A DNA stretch of 37,277 nucleotides, taken from contig JASICF010000221.1 in NCBI GenBank assembly GCA_030044775.1, forward strand, positions 1 through 37,277, read 5' to 3'. The stretch comes from Candidatus Sulfotelmatobacter sp. GTDB taxonomy: Bacteria > Acidobacteriota > Terriglobia > Terriglobales > Acidobacteriaceae. Both the position numbers and the translations under genes were made by a program. The notes under the pieces were generated by a model. The model ran no database searches. It was not told the origin of the DNA and worked only from the letters and a program-made list of their open reading frames with translations. This document shows positions 2,274-25,647 of the stretch, one piece after another. Position 1 is the first letter of the stretch; every line of letters begins with the position of its first letter.

Positions 2274-3406
2274 ATGAAAAAAGCCCATCAGCATCCTCTG
2301 GAAAAGATCCTCGACAATCGTATTGCCATCATCGATGGAGCGATGGGCACGACGATTCGGACTTACGGGATGAAGGAACTGGATATCCGTGGGCTCCGGT
2401 TCAAGGACGCGCCGAAAAGTCTCTTAAACGATGGTGACCTGTTCTCCCTGACGAAGGCAGAAATGATTGGAGACATCCATCGCCGGTTTCTCGAAGCGGG
2501 AGCGGACATCATCGAGACGAACACGTTCGGAGCCACGAGCATCGCCCAGAGCGAGTTTTTTGTGGAGGATCCGCGGGAACACGGCGGCCGAAAGGATCCT
2601 GAGTTTTACCAGAAGATTATCGACGACACGTTTCTCAGCGAGTTGACCTGGGATATCAATGAGCAATCGGCGCAGCTGTGCCGCGAATGGGCTGATCGGG
2701 TTGCAAACGCGACCTCGCGCGCGCGATTTGTGGCAGGAGCGATCGGACCGCTCACGGTTTCTCTTTCGAACTCACCGGATGCCGATGACCCGGGATTTCG
2801 GGTTGTCAGCTTCGATCAGGTGAGAACCGCTTACGCGCTCCAGGTGCGCGCTCTCATCGCTGGCGGTGTAGATGTGCTTCTGGTCGAGACCGTCTTCGAC
2901 TCTCTTAACGCCAAAGCGGCCCTTGTCGCAATCCGCGAAGTGTTCGAGAGGGATGGAAAAGAGCTGCCGATTATGATCTCGGCAGCGGTGGGACGGGGCG
3001 GCGAAACGATGATTTCGGGCCAAACGACGGAGGCCTTCTGGAACGCGGTGCGGCACGTTAAGCCGCTATCGGTGGGCCTCAACTGCTCGCTCGGTCCCGA
3101 ACCTATGTATCCGTTTCTGGAGGAACTTTCGCAGAAGGCGGACGTGGCAATCTCGTGTTATCCAAATGCCGGGCTGCCCAATCCCTTGTCGGAGACCGGC
3201 TTTGATTTGCAGCCGCAGGACATGGCCCGTTATCTCGGCGATTTTGCCCGGGGAGGGTTGATCAACATCGCAGGCGGCTGCTGCGGAAACACTCCTGAGC
3301 ATATAGCGGCGATCGCGAAAGCGCTCGAGGGCGCCGCTCCGCGAAGATTTGGGAATCGACTCAATGAAGTGTCTTTCGCGCGGCAAGGCGAGATCGAGAG
3401 TCGAGT

Positions 3407-3410
<4 letters not shown>
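2274..3410 (+). CDS. metH: Methionine synthase, homocysteine S-methyltransferase domain (N-terminal part of a split MetH)
   Basis: [14 protein letters not shown] start motif. Zn-binding cysteine motifs GLNCSLGP and [10 protein letters not shown]. Ends where the pterin domain begins in single-chain MetH. Confidence 0.9.
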
Positions 3411-6136
<2,726 letters not shown>

Positions 6137-7643: not shown

Positions 7644-10284
7644 ATGCCGGGAGCGACGAAAAAATCGGCCAAGCGTCGGCGCTCCGTCGAACCGCGCAAG
7701 AATCGCGGCAATTCAAATCGTAGTCCTTCAAATCACACACCCTTGATTCGCGCCACCTTCCCGCTCGTGGCCATCGGCGCTTCCGCGGGGGGGGCTCGAA
7801 GCTTTCAGCAATCTGCTGCGTGCTTTACCGCCCGAACCGGGCGTGGCCCTCATCTTTATTCCACACCTCGATCCCACGCACGAAAGTGCGATGGTGGAGC
7901 TGTTGTCCCGCACCACCCGCTTGCCCGTCTTCCAGGCGGCGGAAGGCACCCAGGTAGCCTGTAACTGCCTGTATGTTTTGCCGCCGAATTCCGACATGCG
8001 GATCGCCGACGGCATCTTGCATCTGCTGCGCCGGGAAGCCGGCCGCGGCCAGCATATGCCGATCGACACGTTTTTCCGCTCCCTCGCCGAGGATCAGACC
8101 TCGAACGCCATCGGCGTGATTCTCTCCGGCACCGCCAACGACGGCACGCTTGGCCTGCTTGCCATCAAGAACAACGGCGGCATCACTCTTGCGCAGGATA
8201 GCGACTCCGCCAAGTACGATGGCATGCCGCACAGCGCCACGGCGGCGGGGGTGGTTGACTTTGTCCTTCCTCCCGACCGCATCGCGCAGGAACTGATCCG
8301 CATCCAGAAGCAGCCCTTGACGGAAAAGGGCAAAGACACGTTCGACGGCAATGAGCGCCTGTTGAAGGAAGTCTTCCGCTTGCTGAAAAACGTCAGCAAG
8401 GTTGATTTCATCGACTACAAGATCGCCACCATTCGGCGGCGCATTCTGCGGCGCATGAGCATCAACCGCGTGGAAGAACTCGGCGATTACGTGAAGCTGC
8501 TTCACCGCAATCCGCAGGAGATCGAAGCTCTCTACCGCGACGTGCTGATCAACGTCACCAGTTTCTTTCGCAATCCCGAAGTTTTCGAAGGTTTGCGCGA
8601 ATTTGTGTATCCGAAAATCCTCGCCAACCGGTCATCTTCCGAGCCGATCCGCGTCTGGGTTCCGGGCTGCTCGACGGGCGAAGAAACCTACTCGCACGCC
8701 ATCTCTCTGGTCGAGACGCTTTCCGAAATGCGTCTGGAAGTGCCGGTGCAGATTTTCGGCACCGATCTCAGCGAAAGCGCCATTCAGCGCGCCCGCGCCG
8801 GCGTGTACAAGGAAAGTATCGCCAACGAAGTTTCCGAAGTTCGCCTGCGCCGTTTCTTCCATAAGGCGAACGGCGGCTACCAGATCTCCAAGTCGATTCG
8901 CGACATGTGCGTGTTCGCGCGCCAAAACGTTTTCAGCGATCCGCCGTTTTCCCGCATGGACCTGATCAGTTGCCGCAATGTTCTGATTTACCTGAGCCCG
9001 ATCCTGCAGAAGAAAGTGATTCCCATTTTCCACTATGCCTTGAAGCCAAACGGATTCCTGCTGGTGGGGAGCACGGAGGGTTTGCTGGGCTCGGGTTCGG
9101 AGATCTTCGATCTTGTCGATCGCAAATCGAAAATCTACCAGAAGCGGGCAGTTCCATCTCCGGTCACGTTCGGAATGACGATCAGCGAGGAAGGACCGCG
9201 CGAACCCGGCCGGGAACGGCCGCATCAAGGTGCCAAAGATGAACTGCCGACGAAGACGCCCGCCGACGTGCAACGCGAAGCCGACCGTCTTCTGCTCACC
9301 AAGTACGTTCCCTCCGCCGTGGTGGTGAACGACGATCTTGAAATTGTGCAAAGCCGTGGCCGTACCAACCGCTACTTGGAGCTTCCAACCGGCCGGGCCA
9401 GCCTGAACCTGCTCAAGATGGCGCGTTCCGGCCTCTTGTATGAGTTGCGCGCCCTTATCGAGCACGCCCGGAAGCACGCCGTTCCCGCGTTTAAAGAGAG
9501 AGTAGTCATGGAAGATGCGAACGGCGGCGCCACGGTGCGGCTTGAGGTGATCCCGTTCCGCACCCCGGCGCGCGACCAGCGCCATTTCCTGGTGCTGTTC
9601 GAGGAGATGGAGCACACAACAATTGCCGCTCATGCGAAAGCTCCGCAGCGGACCAGGGGAGTTTCCGAGTTAAAAGATGTACAGATCGCCCAGCTCAAGC
9701 AGGAACTGGCCAGCACCAAGGAATATCTGCAGTCGATCATCGAATCGCAGGAAGCGACCAACGAGGAGTTGCAGTCGGCCAACGAAGAAATTCAGTCGGG
9801 CAATGAAGAACTGCAGAGCACAAACGAAGAATTGCAGACATCGAAAGAAGAGCTGGAATCGGCCAACGAAGAGCTGAACACGGTGAACGAAGAAATCCAG
9901 AATCGCAACCAGCAATTGGCCCAGCTCAGCAACGACCTGCTCAATGTGCTGAACAGCGCAACCATCCCCATTATCATGCTGGGCGAGGACCTGCACATTC
10001 GCCGTTATACTCCCGAAGCCGAGCGCGTTTTCGGCTTCTCCGACAATGATATGGGCAAAGCCCTGACGCACTTGCCCACGAGCCTGCAGATTCCGCAACT
10101 GGAGCGCTGGCTGCTCGACGTGATGCGCGACATCCAGATGCGGACCGAGCAGGTCCAGACGCGGGATGGGAAATCTTACAAGCTCCGCATTACGCCGTAT
10201 CGCACGCTGGAAAATAAGATCGACGGCGTGGTGCTCACTCTATTCGACATCACCGACGTGGTTGGAAAGAATAAAGGGAATTGA
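7644..10284 (+). CDS. CheB-CheR-PAS fusion (protein-glutamate methylesterase / MCP methyltransferase hybrid), frameshifted at the CheB N-terminus
   Basis: CheB part: GASAGG (Ser), PHLDPTHES (His), SGTANDGT (Asp). CheR part: VPGCSTGEETYSHA, DLISCRNVLIYL. Then a TNEELQSANEE coiled coil and a PAS domain. The start ATGCCGGGAGCG (7644) is in a different frame from 7843-10284. Removing one G from the 8-G run at 7787-7794 restores ASAGGLEAFSNLLRALPPEPGVALIFIPHLD. Confidence 0.85.
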
Positions 10285-18147: not shown

Positions 18148-19536
18148 TCAGGCTGAGCAGTCGGATAGTCTACCCACGCCGCGCGGGGTCGCCTCGGTGA
18201 AGGTCATGCGGATTCCGTGCTCGGGCCGCAAAATCACCATGGGACGCGCCTCGATGGTCTGGCCTGGAACCGTGCAGAAATCATATTTTCTGAGCAGAAC
18301 GCTCAGAATCATCAGCATCTGCAGCATGGCGTAGTTGCCTCCGATACATCCCCGGGGGCCAGCCCCAAAGGGCAAATGAGCGAAGGGCGTCAGAAGCTTC
18401 TCCTTTGCTTTGGAAAAGCGCTCCTGATCGAAAGTCTCCGCGTTCTCCCAGTATTGCGGCGAGTGGTGCACGCCATAAATAAACACAATGACCGTCGCCC
18501 CCTGGGGTATTTCCACACCCGCCGCACAGTCGTCTGCCAGAGCGACTCGGTCGACCATCCAAAATGGCGGGTAAAGGCGCAAGGCCTCCATGATTAACTG
18601 AGTCGTAAACTCAAACTTTGGAACATCGGAGTAAGTCAGAGGCTTTTCGCCCAGCACGGAATCGAACTCGTCTCGCGCCCGGTCGACGCATTCCGGACGC
18701 GAACTGAGCAGGTAGAGGAACCACGATAAGGCGTTCGATGAGGTTTCATGGCCGGCAACCAGCAGTTGCATGCTTTCGCTAAGGATCAGTTCGTCGCTCA
18801 TGCCATGGCCGTCGCTGTAGCGAGCGTCCATCAGGATCTGCAGGAGATCGTGACCTGGCGCCTCCTTGCGCCGGCGCTGGAGGTATTCGCGCAGAACGGC
18901 GAAGGCGCGGTTTCGCATTTCCCAGTGTCTTTGTAGTTCGCCCGAGACCGCAAACCAGGGATTCAGATAGGGCTGAATGGTTTGCCGAACCATGAATTCC
19001 TGCACGGTCGAAATGGCCACGCTGATGAGGTCGATGTCTTCATCCCTCAACCGCGCGCCAAACAAAGATCTAGCCACCATCGAAAAGGTAATCTTCATCA
19101 TCAGCGGGTAGATGTCAACAGGGCCGGTGCGGGCCTGCCGGTCGAAGTTCCGCAGCGAGTCGGCGAGCGAGTCCTGCATGATCGACGACAAAATTTCGAG
19201 TTGCTTTCGCTCAAAGCCCGTTTGGATAAGGCGCCGTTGCGTCTTCCAGGCTTCCCCCTCGGTAGTAAGAAGACCCTTGCCTAAGAAATGACCCATTCGC
19301 TTCTTTTGGATTTCGGACTTGTGGTAGTTCTCCGAATTGGTCTTCAGCACATGCTGAATCACAAGGGGATTGATGGTGACGATCGCTTCTTTCAGACCAC
19401 CCAAATAGATCCGGAACGTGTCCCCGAAGGCTTCGTTGTATCTGGACAAAACCTGCACCGGATTGTGGGCCATCGCGCGGGAATCCGCAAAGCAGCGAAA
19501 TCGGGAAACAACGGGGATAGGTGTTGATGAACTCAT
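18148..19536 (-). CDS. Cytochrome P450
   Basis: I-helix AGHETSSNALSW, ExxR in MEALRLYPP, heme loop FGAGPRGCIGGNYA. Confidence 0.95.
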   Translation of the reverse strand: MSSSTPIPVVSRFRCFADSRAMAHNPVQVLSRYNEAFGDTFRIYLGGLKEAIVTINPLVIQHVLKTNSENYHKSEIQKKRMGHFLGKGLLTTEGEAWKTQRRLIQTGFERKQLEILSSIMQDSLADSLRNFDRQARTGPVDIYPLMMKITFSMVARSLFGARLRDEDIDLISVAISTVQEFMVRQTIQPYLNPWFAVSGELQRHWEMRNRAFAVLREYLQRRRKEAPGHDLLQILMDARYSDGHGMSDELILSESMQLLVAGHETSSNALSWFLYLLSSRPECVDRARDEFDSVLGEKPLTYSDVPKFEFTTQLIMEALRLYPPFWMVDRVALADDCAAGVEIPQGATVIVFIYGVHHSPQYWENAETFDQERFSKAKEKLLTPFAHLPFGAGPRGCIGGNYAMLQMLMILSVLLRKYDFCTVPGQTIEARPMVILRPEHGIRMTFTEATPRGVGRLSDCSA

Positions 19537-19627
19537 ACCCTGTAGTCCCGATGTTTGCCGCGAACCAGAGGAGTTTGCATGTTTCTTATAGGAAGCGGTG
19601 GCTGCGCAAAAGATAAAACGCTCAGAA

Positions 19628-20782
19628 TCAGTTTTCGTTCCCCAGTTGCTTCAAAAGTAGCAGATGATGTTTGATCGCCCGCCTCATCGTGGGATGTTGC
19701 CGGTACGGGACGCCAAATTCCTCGGCTGTCTCCTTCACGATGCGCGTCAGCGAGGCATAGTGAGTGTGACATACAAACGGGCACAGATGATGGACGATAT
19801 GGTAGTTCAGCCCGCCGGCAAGCCAGCCAACGAGCGGCTTCTCGGTCGCATAGTCGGCCGTGGTCGCGAAGATGTGATAGATCCCGTTGTCAAACTCGTC
19901 GCGGCTCACGGGAAAATAAGTGCTGTCAACACAGTGGGTAGTCTGAAACACGAGGGCCACACTCAAACCGATGATCAAATGGGCGAGCAAGAAAGAAAAG
20001 CCGACCAGCAGAGGCGATTTCCCCATCAACACGACCGGCAAGATCAGCATGTAGGTGAGGTAGAAAGCCTTCCCGCCAAACAGTATGGCGTATTCCCGCG
20101 CCGGATGCTTGGTGTTTTTCAGATAGTCGTGGGAGGGAAAGAAAAAGCACTCAAAGTCCCTCAGGAACACATAATCGAGAGAAAATAGCGCGTACAGGAA
20201 CAGCGCGTAGATGTGCTGGAACCTCTGCAGAGGTACCCGTGGGGCGTGGGGCGTAAAGCGGAGGATACGACGCCCGGTGAGAGCGTCGTCTTCACCGTGG
20301 AGATTGATGCACGAGTGGTGGCCCCGATGATGAAGGATGCGCCACATATACGAACTGATTCCGCACAAATCGAAGACATAGTTCAGAGTTTTGTTTACGA
20401 GCGCCCGGGACGAGATGGCGTTGTGATTGCTATCATGGGCGATGTTCAGCAATAGGAATGTCTGCGCCAGCCCGCCCAAAAGGTAGAGGGCAATAAACTT
20501 CCATGAATCAGGCCGGAGCGCATAAAGAGTAATCCAGCTCCCCGCAAGCACTGCCAGGCCCGCGGCGATCTTGACTCGCATGGTACGGTCCGCCTTGGGG
20601 GAGATATTCTGATCGGCAAAAAAACGATCCAGGCGGCTACGCAAGACCTTCGGGAACGACGAGCTCCCTAGCGACTCGATAACCCGCGGCGCTGAGCTTT
20701 CCGCTGGTACCAGATCGGATATCTCCGTCTCTCGAGCAATCTCCGCTCCGGTCTCGAACCTCATCGGCGCCTCCGCGGTCAT
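19628..20782 (-). CDS. Membrane fatty acid desaturase
   Basis: Three histidine boxes: HDSNHNA, HHRGHHSCINLH, HIVHHLCP. Hydrophobic segments between them. Confidence 0.92.
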   Translation of the reverse strand: MTAEAPMRFETGAEIARETEISDLVPAESSAPRVIESLGSSSFPKVLRSRLDRFFADQNISPKADRTMRVKIAAGLAVLAGSWITLYALRPDSWKFIALYLLGGLAQTFLLLNIAHDSNHNAISSRALVNKTLNYVFDLCGISSYMWRILHHRGHHSCINLHGEDDALTGRRILRFTPHAPRVPLQRFQHIYALFLYALFSLDYVFLRDFECFFFPSHDYLKNTKHPAREYAILFGGKAFYLTYMLILPVVLMGKSPLLVGFSFLLAHLIIGLSVALVFQTTHCVDSTYFPVSRDEFDNGIYHIFATTADYATEKPLVGWLAGGLNYHIVHHLCPFVCHTHYASLTRIVKETAEEFGVPYRQHPTMRRAIKHHLLLLKQLGNEN

Positions 20783-21272
20783 GGTAAATTGGACCCGACA
20801 AGTTCACAAGTTACATGAGTGGCCCTGACCCGCGGCGTAATTGCTGCCGCGCTGTCGATCGTTTCCCAGAAGTATTTTATTGCGAGCCCTAAGAGGCATC
20901 AATAAAATTTGGAACGGACAAGGCCAACTGCAGCGCTTCATCGAGGAATCGATGACTGATGGTGTTGCCCAAATACTTTGCTAAATTTGTATGGCCCGAA
21001 GCGGGATGCCCGGTTCGCCGCGATTCATTGGTTCGTATATTATGGCGTTGCTTCAAAAGTCTCCGTGCGCCGGGTACGGCGAAATGGAGAACGTCCGATC
21101 CCCAGGTACTCGATCGGCGCTTTGTACTGAGAAAAAAAGGGCGTACATTCTCAGAGTCAGCCCACAACTTCCGTTTGCACGTTGGAACTCAATGTGTTTT
21201 CCTCGCTCGGTGGTGAGGGATGTTTCGCTTTACTGACTTGCGTTCTATTCGATCTTGGAGGATCGCTGATTA

Positions 21273-24200
21273 ATGACAGCGACAATTCTGGACCACCTCG
21301 ATAGGCTGGCAGTTGAGCACCCGACAAAGCTACTTTATTCGTACCTCGACGTAAACGGCGATCCGATCGAAACCTACACCTACGCGTCGTTTCTGCGCCG
21401 GGCACAAGCGATCGCAGGACATTTGCGAAAAGGGGAGCGCTTCGCGGCGGGCGATCGGCTTCTGCTTGCCTACCCGCCGGGGCTCGAAATGATCTGCGCA
21501 TTTTTTGGTTGCGTGCGCGCCGGGTTGATCCCCGTTCCGGTCTATCCCCCCAGTTCGCGCGGCTTCCAGAGCGCTCTATACAAGACGGTCCACATCGCGA
21601 AGGATTGCCAGGCGGCCGGAATCTTAACCAGCCGGGATTACCTTGCATCTCTCAAGACAAATCTCGCTAGACGTGGAGTGTCGGCGTCGGGCGTTGACGT
21701 AAATTACATTTCCGGTCTTCCCTGGATCGCGACGGAAGATTTCGTCGACCCGATTTCGAACCAAGCCCCCGCCGATCCTTCGAAGATCTTGTTTCTCCAG
21801 TACACGTCGGGTTCGACCATGGAGCCCAAAGGCGTGATGGTGACGCACGAAAACATCCTGAATACCTACGAGCTCGTGATCGACCATCCGTCGCCGGTCG
21901 TCGTTTCCTGGCTTCCGCAGTATCACGATATGGGGCTGATCGGGTGCTATCTGTATCCTGCGCTGAAAGGTGGCACGACATACGGGTTCGCTCCCATGGA
22001 TTTTATTCAGCGGCCCATTCTATGGTTCAATGCGATCACCGCCTACCACGCCACTGCGGCAGCTGCTCCCAACTTCGCCTACGACTACTGCTTGCGCGCC
22101 GGCAGACTCTCCAAGGAAAGCCTGCAGGCTTGTAACCTCGGCTCGCTTCGCGTCTTGATGTGCGCCGCGGAACCCGTGAAACCGGATACCTACACCCGGT
22201 TTCTGGAAACCTTTCAGCCCTACGGGCTCAAATCCGAGAGTTTCTATGTCGCCTACGGACTGGCCGAGAATACTTTGGCGGTTTCATTGGGCGGCCGCAA
22301 CATCGTCTCTGTCAACAAGCGCGCCCTGGCGCTGGGGAAGGCCCGCATGACGACCGAGGTGTCAGAAATCGGCGCCGCTACGCAAATCGTCAGTTGTGGA
22401 ACCTCGCTCCCGGGTCTCGACGTCAAGATCGTGGACCCCGAAGGACATTTCCCGCTTAAGCCGGAGCGCATCGGCGAAATTTGGGTCGCCGGAAGCGGCA
22501 AGTGCCAGGGTTATTGGAATAATCCTGAGCTGACTCTCAAGCAGTTTCGCGCACGGCTTGTGGACGATACTCCCTATGATGACGGCTACCTTCGCACTGG
22601 CGACCTGGGTTTTGTTCACAATGGCGAACTCTACGTCTGCGGCCGTATCAAGGACATGATTATTCTCCGCGGGCAGAACTATTACCCGCAGGACATTGAG
22701 AACGTGGTGGAGAAATCATCCGCCCTGATCCGCCACAATTGCGTCGCCGCATTCCAGATTCAGGAGGATAGCGAACCTGCGCTGGCAATCGTCGCGGAAG
22801 TCAAAAATCCTAAAGCGCTTCCAGAAGCACGAAAAATTGCCGCTGCGGTCAGGAATTGTCTCAACGTGGAAGTGGCGCGCATTTCCTTCATCGCGCCTCG
22901 TGCGATCCCGAGAACCAGTTCAGGAAAGATCATGCGCCATAAGACCAAGCAGATGTGGCTGCAAGATCAGTTCACCGTTCTCTCCGATTTTTCGCGGGAG
23001 AAAGACGCCGGGCAGTCTCATTCCGATATGCACTCCTCGTTCGCCGAATTGAAAGCGCGGTACAACCTGACAGGCCTGGAATCGTACAACCTGGTCGAAG
23101 CCGGCCTGGATTCCCTGGATCTTGTTGTATTCACGCATGAGCTCAAGGAACTCCTGAAAGATAAAGGCGCCGAGTTGATGGCGAGGCAGGTAGATATTGG
23201 CGTCATTCAGCGTGTGAGTGTGGCCGAACTGTTCGGACTGGCCGAACAATTGGAGCGTGCTCCTGAGAAGGCTTTGGTTCATCTGCGCCATTCCCTTGCA
23301 GCTTTCCGCGAAGAGCAGTGCGCCGCCGAGAAACAAATGATGAGCAACGACAGGAAGCTCATCTTCGAGCCACCGGCGCCTTCACCCGTGCCGGAGATCC
23401 CGGTGCTGAATCACGTGCTGCTCACTGGCGGGACGGGTTTCATAGGACCATTCCTCATTAAAAGCTTGCTGGAGCAGACACGGGCGAAGATCTATGTTCT
23501 GGTCAGGTCGTCCGATGAAAAACAGGGCAGGCAGCGATTGAGAGCTGCGATGGAGTCAATGGGACCTTGCGGAGCGGGGCTGATGGAGATGTTCGAAGCC
23601 CGCGTGATCCCAATCTCCGGCGATCTGGCGCAGCCAAAGCTTGGGCTGATGCAGGACGCGTGGGATTTCCTCGCCAGTGAAATCGACACCGTATTCCATA
23701 ACGGCGCAACCGTGAACTATCTGTTTAACTACGACCTGATGCGGGACGCGAACGTGCTGGGAACCAATGAAGTCGTAAGACTGGCGTTCGAGGGAAGGCC
23801 CAAAGAGTTCAATTATGTCTCGACCACTTTCGTGTTTGGCTGGGCGGTCAAATCAGTCTTGTATGAGACCGACTTGAACGAGAGTATGGAGCTTCTCGAC
23901 TTTGGGTATAGCCAATCGAAATGGGTCGCGGAACAAGTGGTTATCGATGCGCGCACCCGTGGACTTACCGCGCGGATTTTCCGTCCGGCTCTGGTAAGCC
24001 CTTCGGTCACTGGCGGAGGCAACAACTTCGATATTGCCGTTCGCCTGGTCGCTTTCATGGTGAATCACGGCATTGGCGTCGATACTCTCAACCAGGTCAG
24101 CTTTGTTCCCGCCGACATTGTGGCCAACAATATCGTTGCGATTTCTACCACTCCCGGTACCGCCAATAAGACCTACCATGTTGTTCGGGACGACTATTCG

Positions 24201-24674
24201 AACATGATGGATATCACCGGCCTTATTACCAAAGCGACCGGCCGGCAATTCGAAAAATTCAGCCTTCCCGATTTCGTTCCCGAGCTGATCCGGAGATGCC
24301 GTAAGGAAGATCTTCTCTTTCCACTGCTGGATTTTCTGGTGGGCTCCGTCGACAACATCTCCGCAATGGAATTCAAACGGTATGACAGCTCGTCCTATCA
24401 AATGGCCCGGGATGCCTCCGCATGGGGCAAACCGGACCCCTCCTTGGAAGAGACAGTCAACGGTATTCTGAAATTTATGTATCGCAAGGGAATCATTTCG
24501 ATCGCGGCCCGCGAGGTCAATGCCGTGTCACCCATCTGCGGGCCAGAACTGACTCTTCAGACCCATCGGAGAGGTCTCGATTGCGGTGCGGATTGTCTGC
24601 AATCCATGGCCGCCCCCGGAGATCCTGAGTGTATCGAGGAGATGCCGAAGATCGTAGCCTCGGAGCAGGCATAA
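21273..24674 (+). CDS. Fatty acyl-AMP ligase / acyl carrier / thioester reductase trifunctional protein (FAAL-ACP-TR)
   Basis: FLQYTSGSTMEPKGVMVTHENIL and SWLPQYHDMGLIGCYLYP (FAAL), VEAGLDSLDLVVF (phosphopantetheine serine), LLTGGTGFIGPFLIKSLLEQT plus YSQSKWVAEQVV (NAD(P)-binding reductase). Confidence 0.92.
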   Translation: MTATILDHLDRLAVEHPTKLLYSYLDVNGDPIETYTYASFLRRAQAIAGHLRKGERFAAGDRLLLAYPPGLEMICAFFGCVRAGLIPVPVYPPSSRGFQSALYKTVHIAKDCQAAGILTSRDYLASLKTNLARRGVSASGVDVNYISGLPWIATEDFVDPISNQAPADPSKILFLQYTSGSTMEPKGVMVTHENILNTYELVIDHPSPVVVSWLPQYHDMGLIGCYLYPALKGGTTYGFAPMDFIQRPILWFNAITAYHATAAAAPNFAYDYCLRAGRLSKESLQACNLGSLRVLMCAAEPVKPDTYTRFLETFQPYGLKSESFYVAYGLAENTLAVSLGGRNIVSVNKRALALGKARMTTEVSEIGAATQIVSCGTSLPGLDVKIVDPEGHFPLKPERIGEIWVAGSGKCQGYWNNPELTLKQFRARLVDDTPYDDGYLRTGDLGFVHNGELYVCGRIKDMIILRGQNYYPQDIENVVEKSSALIRHNCVAAFQIQEDSEPALAIVAEVKNPKALPEARKIAAAVRNCLNVEVARISFIAPRAIPRTSSGKIMRHKTKQMWLQDQFTVLSDFSREKDAGQSHSDMHSSFAELKARYNLTGLESYNLVEAGLDSLDLVVFTHELKELLKDKGAELMARQVDIGVIQRVSVAELFGLAEQLERAPEKALVHLRHSLAAFREEQCAAEKQMMSNDRKLIFEPPAPSPVPEIPVLNHVLLTGGTGFIGPFLIKSLLEQTRAKIYVLVRSSDEKQGRQRLRAAMESMGPCGAGLMEMFEARVIPISGDLAQPKLGLMQDAWDFLASEIDTVFHNGATVNYLFNYDLMRDANVLGTNEVVRLAFEGRPKEFNYVSTTFVFGWAVKSVLYETDLNESMELLDFGYSQSKWVAEQVVIDARTRGLTARIFRPALVSPSVTGGGNNFDIAVRLVAFMVNHGIGVDTLNQVSFVPADIVANNIVAISTTPGTANKTYHVVRDDYSNMMDITGLITKATGRQFEKFSLPDFVPELIRRCRKEDLLFPLLDFLVGSVDNISAMEFKRYDSSSYQMARDASAWGKPDPSLEETVNGILKFMYRKGIISIAAREVNAVSPICGPELTLQTHRRGLDCGADCLQSMAAPGDPECIEEMPKIVASEQA

Positions 24675-24813: not shown

Positions 24814-25647
24814 CTAACGCTTGGTGGCAGTTCCCTTTTTTGAGTCTGCGGCCGATGTCTGCGGCCAATCCGGCGAGGCCAGTTCCGTGCGCCACACTGG
24901 CCCTCCCGCGTAAGACAGTGTTTCGGACCTCAGAACAACTGGGGCTTCGCCGCCAAGAACCCAAATCTGCGCATCCGGCGGTTGCTTTCCTACCATGGGC
25001 GCGACCACGCCGGCGACGCCTCCCAGATCGATCTTCCCGACATAATGCATGGCCTTGCGACTAATTCCCCCCAGGGAAAACGGCTCCGTCCCTTCGGCGT
25101 TCACGACAATCTTCACCAGCCTCGGCTTCGGCGCAGCAACCACCATGGGAATCTCAATCTGCTGCGTGCCGGCGGGGATGTTCATCAGGAGCGTAGGAAT
25201 CAAACCATTACCCAGGTCGGGCGGCAGCGCGAGGTGCTCGTTCGCTACTTTCTGTTTGCCATCTTTGTCTGCGTAGCGAACCGTAACCTGCCCCGTGGCG
25301 CATCGCACCGAGAGATCGCTTGCGTTCTTGAACGAAGGCCCATTCTGGACCATGTGATAGGAGATGAGCCGGAAGGCGCCGCGCTGCGAAAAAACCGTGG
25401 TTTCCTCTTGCCGTGAACCGTCCTTGAAGTGAAACGCGACTTGAGTGGTGACTTGATCGCCGCGAGTGGTTTGGATTAAATCGCCGGCCGCGATCACCAC
25501 GCCATCCAGCGTGCTGAGCACCAGAAAACCGTGAATCATGCCTTCCCTGTAGCGCACCGTGACCGCAGACGATGACGCCGCAACGCTCGAAAGAATACAA
25601 CTGGAAGTCAGCAGAACACCGAGAATGCGGGAACGCAAAACCATCAC
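24814..25647 (-). CDS. Secreted hypothetical protein, about 277 aa
   Basis: N-terminal signal-like ILGVLLTSSCILSSVAASSSA. Beta-rich remainder; no family recognised. Confidence 0.7.
   Translation of the reverse strand: MMVLRSRILGVLLTSSCILSSVAASSSAVTVRYREGMIHGFLVLSTLDGVVIAAGDLIQTTRGDQVTTQVAFHFKDGSRQEETTVFSQRGAFRLISYHMVQNGPSFKNASDLSVRCATGQVTVRYADKDGKQKVANEHLALPPDLGNGLIPTLLMNIPAGTQQIEIPMVVAAPKPRLVKIVVNAEGTEPFSLGGISRKAMHYVGKIDLGGVAGVVAPMVGKQPPDAQIWVLGGEAPVVLRSETLSYAGGPVWRTELASPDWPQTSAADSKKGTATKR

Follow-up and report, generated by a model that had tools for sequence, protein, structure and literature searches.

Five genes in the genome of a Candidatus Sulfotelmatobacter form a discrete, patchily distributed unit that encodes a cytochrome P450, a desaturase, a fatty acyl-AMP ligase (FAAL) fused to an ACP and a thioester reductase (TR), a lipocalin-like protein and an MMPL transporter. 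This cassette is probably a dedicated lipid-making and exporting unit, in which a fatty acid would be activated by the FAAL, loaded on the ACP, desaturated, oxidized by the P450, released reductively and exported by the MMPL transporter.

A discrete five-gene unit in Acidobacteriaceae

The features of the cassette (Table 1) lie in contig JASICF010000221.1, whose 37,277-nt sequence, analysed as a whole, is referred to as the window.

Table 1. Features of the cassette and of its immediate surroundings in the window
Feature	Coordinates	Strand	Evidence or remark
Cytochrome P450, 462 aa	18148..19536	-	PF00067, 288 bits; heme Cys motif FGAGPRGCIG
Membrane fatty acid desaturase, three His boxes, 384 aa	19628..20782	-	PF00487, 98 bits (cut-off 29.7)
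Divergent intergenic region, 490 nt	20783..21272		promoter role presumed
FAAL-ACP-thioester reductase, 1133 aa	21273..24674	+	PF00501, PF07993, TIGR01746
277-aa ORF of unknown kind, outside the conserved unit	24814..25647	-	window and L096 only, among loci checked
Secreted protein, two lipocalin/FABP-like beta barrels, 300 aa	25790..26692	-	AlphaFold2 and Foldseek; 27/28 cassettes
MMPL family transporter, 752 aa	26691..28949	+	PF03176, 226 bits (cut-off 20.5); 28/28 cassettes

The three ORFs of the original prediction (P450, desaturase and FAAL-ACP-TR) were confirmed exactly in position and strand. The divergent gap of 91 nt was wrong: this is the distance between the P450 and desaturase genes, which share a strand, while the spacer between the divergent FAAL and desaturase genes has 490 nt (~320-530 nt in most relatives). 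The spacer presumably holds promoters. Several 8-10-mers of this region, ATGTTAGC and GGATCGCTGA among them, are shared with relatives, and this more often than in shuffles; since the loci are related, the sharing was left uninterpreted.

A sample of 300 genomes of the window's family was searched with each of the three proteins. FAAL-ACP-TR, P450 and desaturase were found in an identical set of 38 genomes, never one without the others. Such co-occurrence is not due to chance: it would be vanishingly unlikely if the genes were independent, though related genomes are non-independent draws. Conserved co-occurrence, on which the original prediction had staked its case, is thus strongly upheld, and the view of the three genes as one functional unit is supported. 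FAAL and P450 also show correlated pairwise distances (0.73 within the family and 0.82 across phyla), which kinship of the organisms could partly explain.

The order P450-desaturase-FAAL-ACP-TR-MMPL and the orientations were the same in all 28 loci examined, and a lipocalin-like ORF was located between the FAAL and MMPL genes in 27 of them. Genes outside the five-gene block were common to only 4 of 351 locus pairs; hence the five genes are the unit, a discrete block situated in many genomic places. The locus had been described as a minimal standalone pathway. Neither acyltransferase nor PKS/NRPS was detected among the main window ORFs scanned; the conserved lipocalin-like and MMPL genes bring the number of genes from three to five.

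Cassette-bearing relatives belong to Edaphobacter, Granulicella, Terriglobus, Bryocella, Terracidiphilus and Candidatus Sulfotelmatobacter MAGs; the named strains are Bryocella elongata DSM 22489, Terracidiphilus gabretensis S55 (locus L145), Edaphobacter lichenicola and a Granulicella sp. A contig labelled Verrucomicrobia (CAJCIP010000011.1, L137) has a 78% identical cassette and is probably a mislabelled MAG of the window's family.

The 277-aa ORF between the FAAL and lipocalin-like genes has no Pfam match; its copy in L096 is 86% identical, and it was absent from the other cassettes checked. At the same cassette position, locus L076 (12753-15731) has a gene broken into two ORFs, which on our own reading of the sequence may be TonB-receptor-like. 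Elsewhere in the window, methionine synthase is encoded by two overlapping genes (a homocysteine methyltransferase part and a pterin/B12 part; 2274-6136, + strand), and a fusion protein CheB-CheR-PAS is encoded at 7843-10284 (+ strand).

Domains and active sites of the encoded proteins

Domain matches bore out the ligase and the reductase predicted for the 1133-aa protein: a fatty acyl-AMP ligase (residues ~1-575; AMP-binding PF00501, 217 bits) is followed by a putative carrier with the GLDSLDL motif (Ser614) and a thioester reductase (~714-1037; NAD_binding_4 PF07993, 200 bits; TIGR01746, 232 bits vs a cut-off of 213 bits). The best PDB matches of the ligase were FAALs (7r7f, 3kxw, FadD23 and FadD32, about 220-357 bits), while 4CL and other CoA ligases in PDB reached at most 96 bits. 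The FAAL-specific insertion, whose role is described in PMC11837247, is present: in an alignment made up of FAALs only, the stretch of residues ~338-372 shows no more than small gaps against LpFAAL and 7r7f. By sequence kinship, we assign the ligase domain to the FAALs and not to the acyl-CoA ligases.

The carrier domain gave no Pfam PP-binding match at E<=0.001; its Ser614 is invariant in 20 family proteins and in all 34 proteins of the alignment with 33 outgroup proteins. Ligase Lys552 is conserved throughout the aligned proteins, and the reductase motifs TGGTGFxG, S[ST]TF and YxxxK are kept in 34 proteins from six phyla, with minor variants of the glycine motif. Judged from these residues, the active sites of FAAL-ACP-TR are intact. 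PPTases for the ACP are encoded in the window's own genome.

FAAL domains of the FAAL-ACP-TR architecture form a supported clade (99/99) separate from plasmid-borne PKS/NRPS FAALs, in a tree with a small reference set of seven plasmid-borne FAALs as outgroups. The original prediction is supported in that they group apart from the PKS/NRPS FAALs included. A plasmid search returned FAALs of 34-40% identity only, none covering 80% of the query.

The predicted desaturase and P450 on the strand opposite to the FAAL gene were also corroborated by Pfam matches and motifs. Conservation of the desaturase His boxes HDSNH, HHRGHH and HIVHH is broken only by single exceptions, one in the first box and one in the third; the AlphaFold2 model of this protein has a mean pLDDT of 54.

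For the lipocalin-like protein, the AlphaFold2 model (25 relatives) shows two beta barrels, with pLDDT ~82-97 from residue 61 on; the N-terminal stretch before them is of low confidence. The hydrophobic N-terminal segment of the protein resembles, in our own reading, a signal peptide. In Foldseek searches single barrels matched fatty-acid- and bile-acid-binding proteins (probability 1.00); the E-values were about 0.01-0.03, and the two-barrel protein may bind lipids. The MMPL transporter could be classified neither as an MmpL3 equivalog (250 vs 1400 bits) nor as an HpnN equivalog (72 vs 752 bits).

Relatives in other phyla

With the family alignment we scanned a named genome collection holding one genome per species (84,980 species). 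Full-length FAAL-ACP-TR proteins of 44-56% identity were detected in Bacteroidota, Gemmatimonadota, Verrucomicrobiota, Planctomycetota and Calditrichota (phyla according to record titles). Among 33 outgroup loci, the FAAL gene had a P450 gene nearby in 20, a desaturase gene in 20 (nine at 43-49% and eleven at 28-32% identity), a sulfotransferase gene in 11 and an Sfp-type PPTase gene in 10. MMPL and lipocalin-like genes were not near the FAAL gene in the loci examined outside the acidobacterial family; we therefore infer transport for one family only.

The P450 appears to be tied to the FAAL across phyla. Cassette-associated P450s elsewhere are 37-46% identical to that of the window, vs at most 35% for non-cassette P450s in its own phylum. 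A P450 of 39-46% identity was found in 12 of 14 tested outgroup genomes, in five of them unlinked to the FAAL gene. Only two of 149 Bacteroidia genomes (a sample drawn around one of these two) had FAAL-ACP-TR, and the same two had the closest P450s. The pair L174/L175, basal among the loci, lacks a P450 in the neighbourhood of the FAAL gene, and the whole genome of L174 gave no P450 at E<=1e-20; its locus has a glycosyltransferase.

The nine outgroup desaturases at 43-49% are closer to that of the window than any non-cassette acidobacterial desaturase in the sample (at most 38%). The desaturase of Flavobacteriales is only 28-32% identical to the window's, and those genomes of Gemmatimonadota, Verrucomicrobiota and Calditrichota that were examined had none; the desaturase thus lies outside the universal core.

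Seven flavobacterial loci (L152, L155, L161, L163, L164, L168 and L173) contain a second desaturase, a sulfotransferase and the same type of membrane protein (~250 aa, no Pfam match); all except L173 also have a PPTase. In its gene content, this version of the locus resembles a biosynthetic cluster for a sulfated lipid. An apparent 1585-aa 'FAAL-P450 fusion' in L170 was rejected, as the FAAL match lies in another frame of an overlapping ORF.

Proposed pathway and alternatives

Gene content, intact active sites, co-inheritance and adjacency were shown above; the order of reactions, the substrate, the product and the transport would be as follows. The FAAL domain would use ATP to activate a free fatty acid, which it would load on the fused ACP. 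The desaturase would add a double bond and the P450 an oxygen, either while the chain is bound to the ACP or after its release, and the TR domain with NAD(P)H would release the chain as aldehyde or alcohol. In Acidobacteriaceae only, the MMPL transporter would move the product out with the help of the periplasmic two-barrel lipocalin-like protein. Outside this phylum, different finishing enzymes accompany the enzymatic core: in many cases a sulfotransferase and once a glycosyltransferase. The recurrent sulfotransferase and the glycosyltransferase of L174 suggest that a released or introduced hydroxyl is conjugated there. The originally predicted route (activation, desaturation and/or hydroxylation, reductive release) is kept as the most likely one, and export is added to it. 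More tentatively, at somewhat less than even confidence, we propose a hitherto undescribed class of PKS-free lipid pathways in six phyla, in which a FAAL-ACP-reductase fusion and a dedicated P450 clade would produce a fatty alcohol or aldehyde that is oxygenated and in many cases unsaturated; according to lineage, sulfation, glycosylation or export would follow and give a new envelope or signalling lipid.

Known FAAL-ACP loading modules (JamA with ACP and desaturase; CylA; HapA; olefin synthase) resemble the cassette in acyl-AMP activation and loading of a cognate ACP. They pass the chain to PKS/NRPS, whereas in the cassette the fused reductase would release it, and a P450 and an exporter are present. 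The Jam-type module has a separate FAAL, desaturase and ACP feeding PKS/NRPS; with ACP and TR fused to the FAAL, and PKS/NRPS absent from the scanned ORFs of the window, we rejected the assignment of the cassette to acetylenic loading modules of this type. Carboxylic acid reductases (A-carrier-R) have a similar three-domain layout and reductive release. Here, however, the adenylation domain is FAAL-type, and the score against the model of this family, NF041592, is far below its cut-off (144.6 vs 1300 bits). Mycobacterial FadD23/MmpL8 and relatives also combine FAAL activation with MMPL for an envelope lipid (PMC9989471); the mycobacterial locus uses a PKS, in place of which the cassette has TR, P450 and desaturase.

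Alternatively, the cassette might make not an envelope lipid but a diffusible secondary metabolite, i.e. a signal or antimicrobial fatty alcohol, an aldehyde or a polyunsaturated or acetylenic lipid. Patchy distribution, changing genomic position and a dedicated exporter would all agree with this, as would the pairing of FAAL and desaturase known from Jam-type loading, where JamA works together with a desaturase while the chain is on the ACP (PMC11837247). We hold this to be rather unlikely: there is one desaturase only and no PKS/NRPS, and a lipid would account just as well for the wide occurrence in many phyla with interchangeable finishing enzymes. The envelope-lipid and secondary-metabolite readings would look alike in sequence.

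The original prediction had considered that the fatty alcohol or aldehyde might feed ether lipids of Acidobacteria; this is not supported and seems improbable. A parallel is ElbD of Myxococcus xanthus, a single protein that likewise unites ligase, ACP and reductase domains (PMC9131029). Yet the domain order of ElbD is FAR-ACS-ACP-acyltransferase (PMC9131029) and not FAAL-ACP-TR, the cassette has no acyltransferase, and no desaturase or P450 is described for the ElbD operon, while the cassette has both; an ElbD-type ether-lipid enzyme was rejected on domain order and lack of the acyltransferase. Iso-diabolic acid is described as a main constituent of the membranes of most Acidobacteria (PMC10087280); the cassette is present in only 13% of the family genomes (38/300), and a conserved MMPL transporter would be needless on an inner-membrane ether-lipid route. 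One lead in the other direction is that T. gabretensis, a carrier of the cassette, is reported to have 16.9% of a likely iso-diabolic acid isomer, while its closest relatives are without it (PMC12935467).

TR domains are able to yield fatty alcohols, from which a wax synthase could make wax esters or storage lipid. This fate is highly improbable: no more than 4 of the 38 genomes with the cassette have the wax synthase PF03007, vs about 44 of the 262 others, and it was not found in the window's own genome (80% complete).

A 2025 review divides FAALs into stand-alone, didomain with ACP and PKS/NRPS-embedded classes, and in its main text neither 'reductase' nor 'P450' occurs as a word start (PMC11837247). 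An earlier description of the cassette or its product was not found among the titles and abstracts searched, in a library with few subscription journals or preprints. FAALs are known mostly as starters of PKS/NRPS lines; here the FAAL would pass the chain directly to a reductase, and one P450 clade follows the FAAL across phyla. The presence of the cassette in named strains means that the product can be sought directly, and the enzymatic core may be a marker for a possibly unrecognised lipid class of soil and aquatic bacteria.
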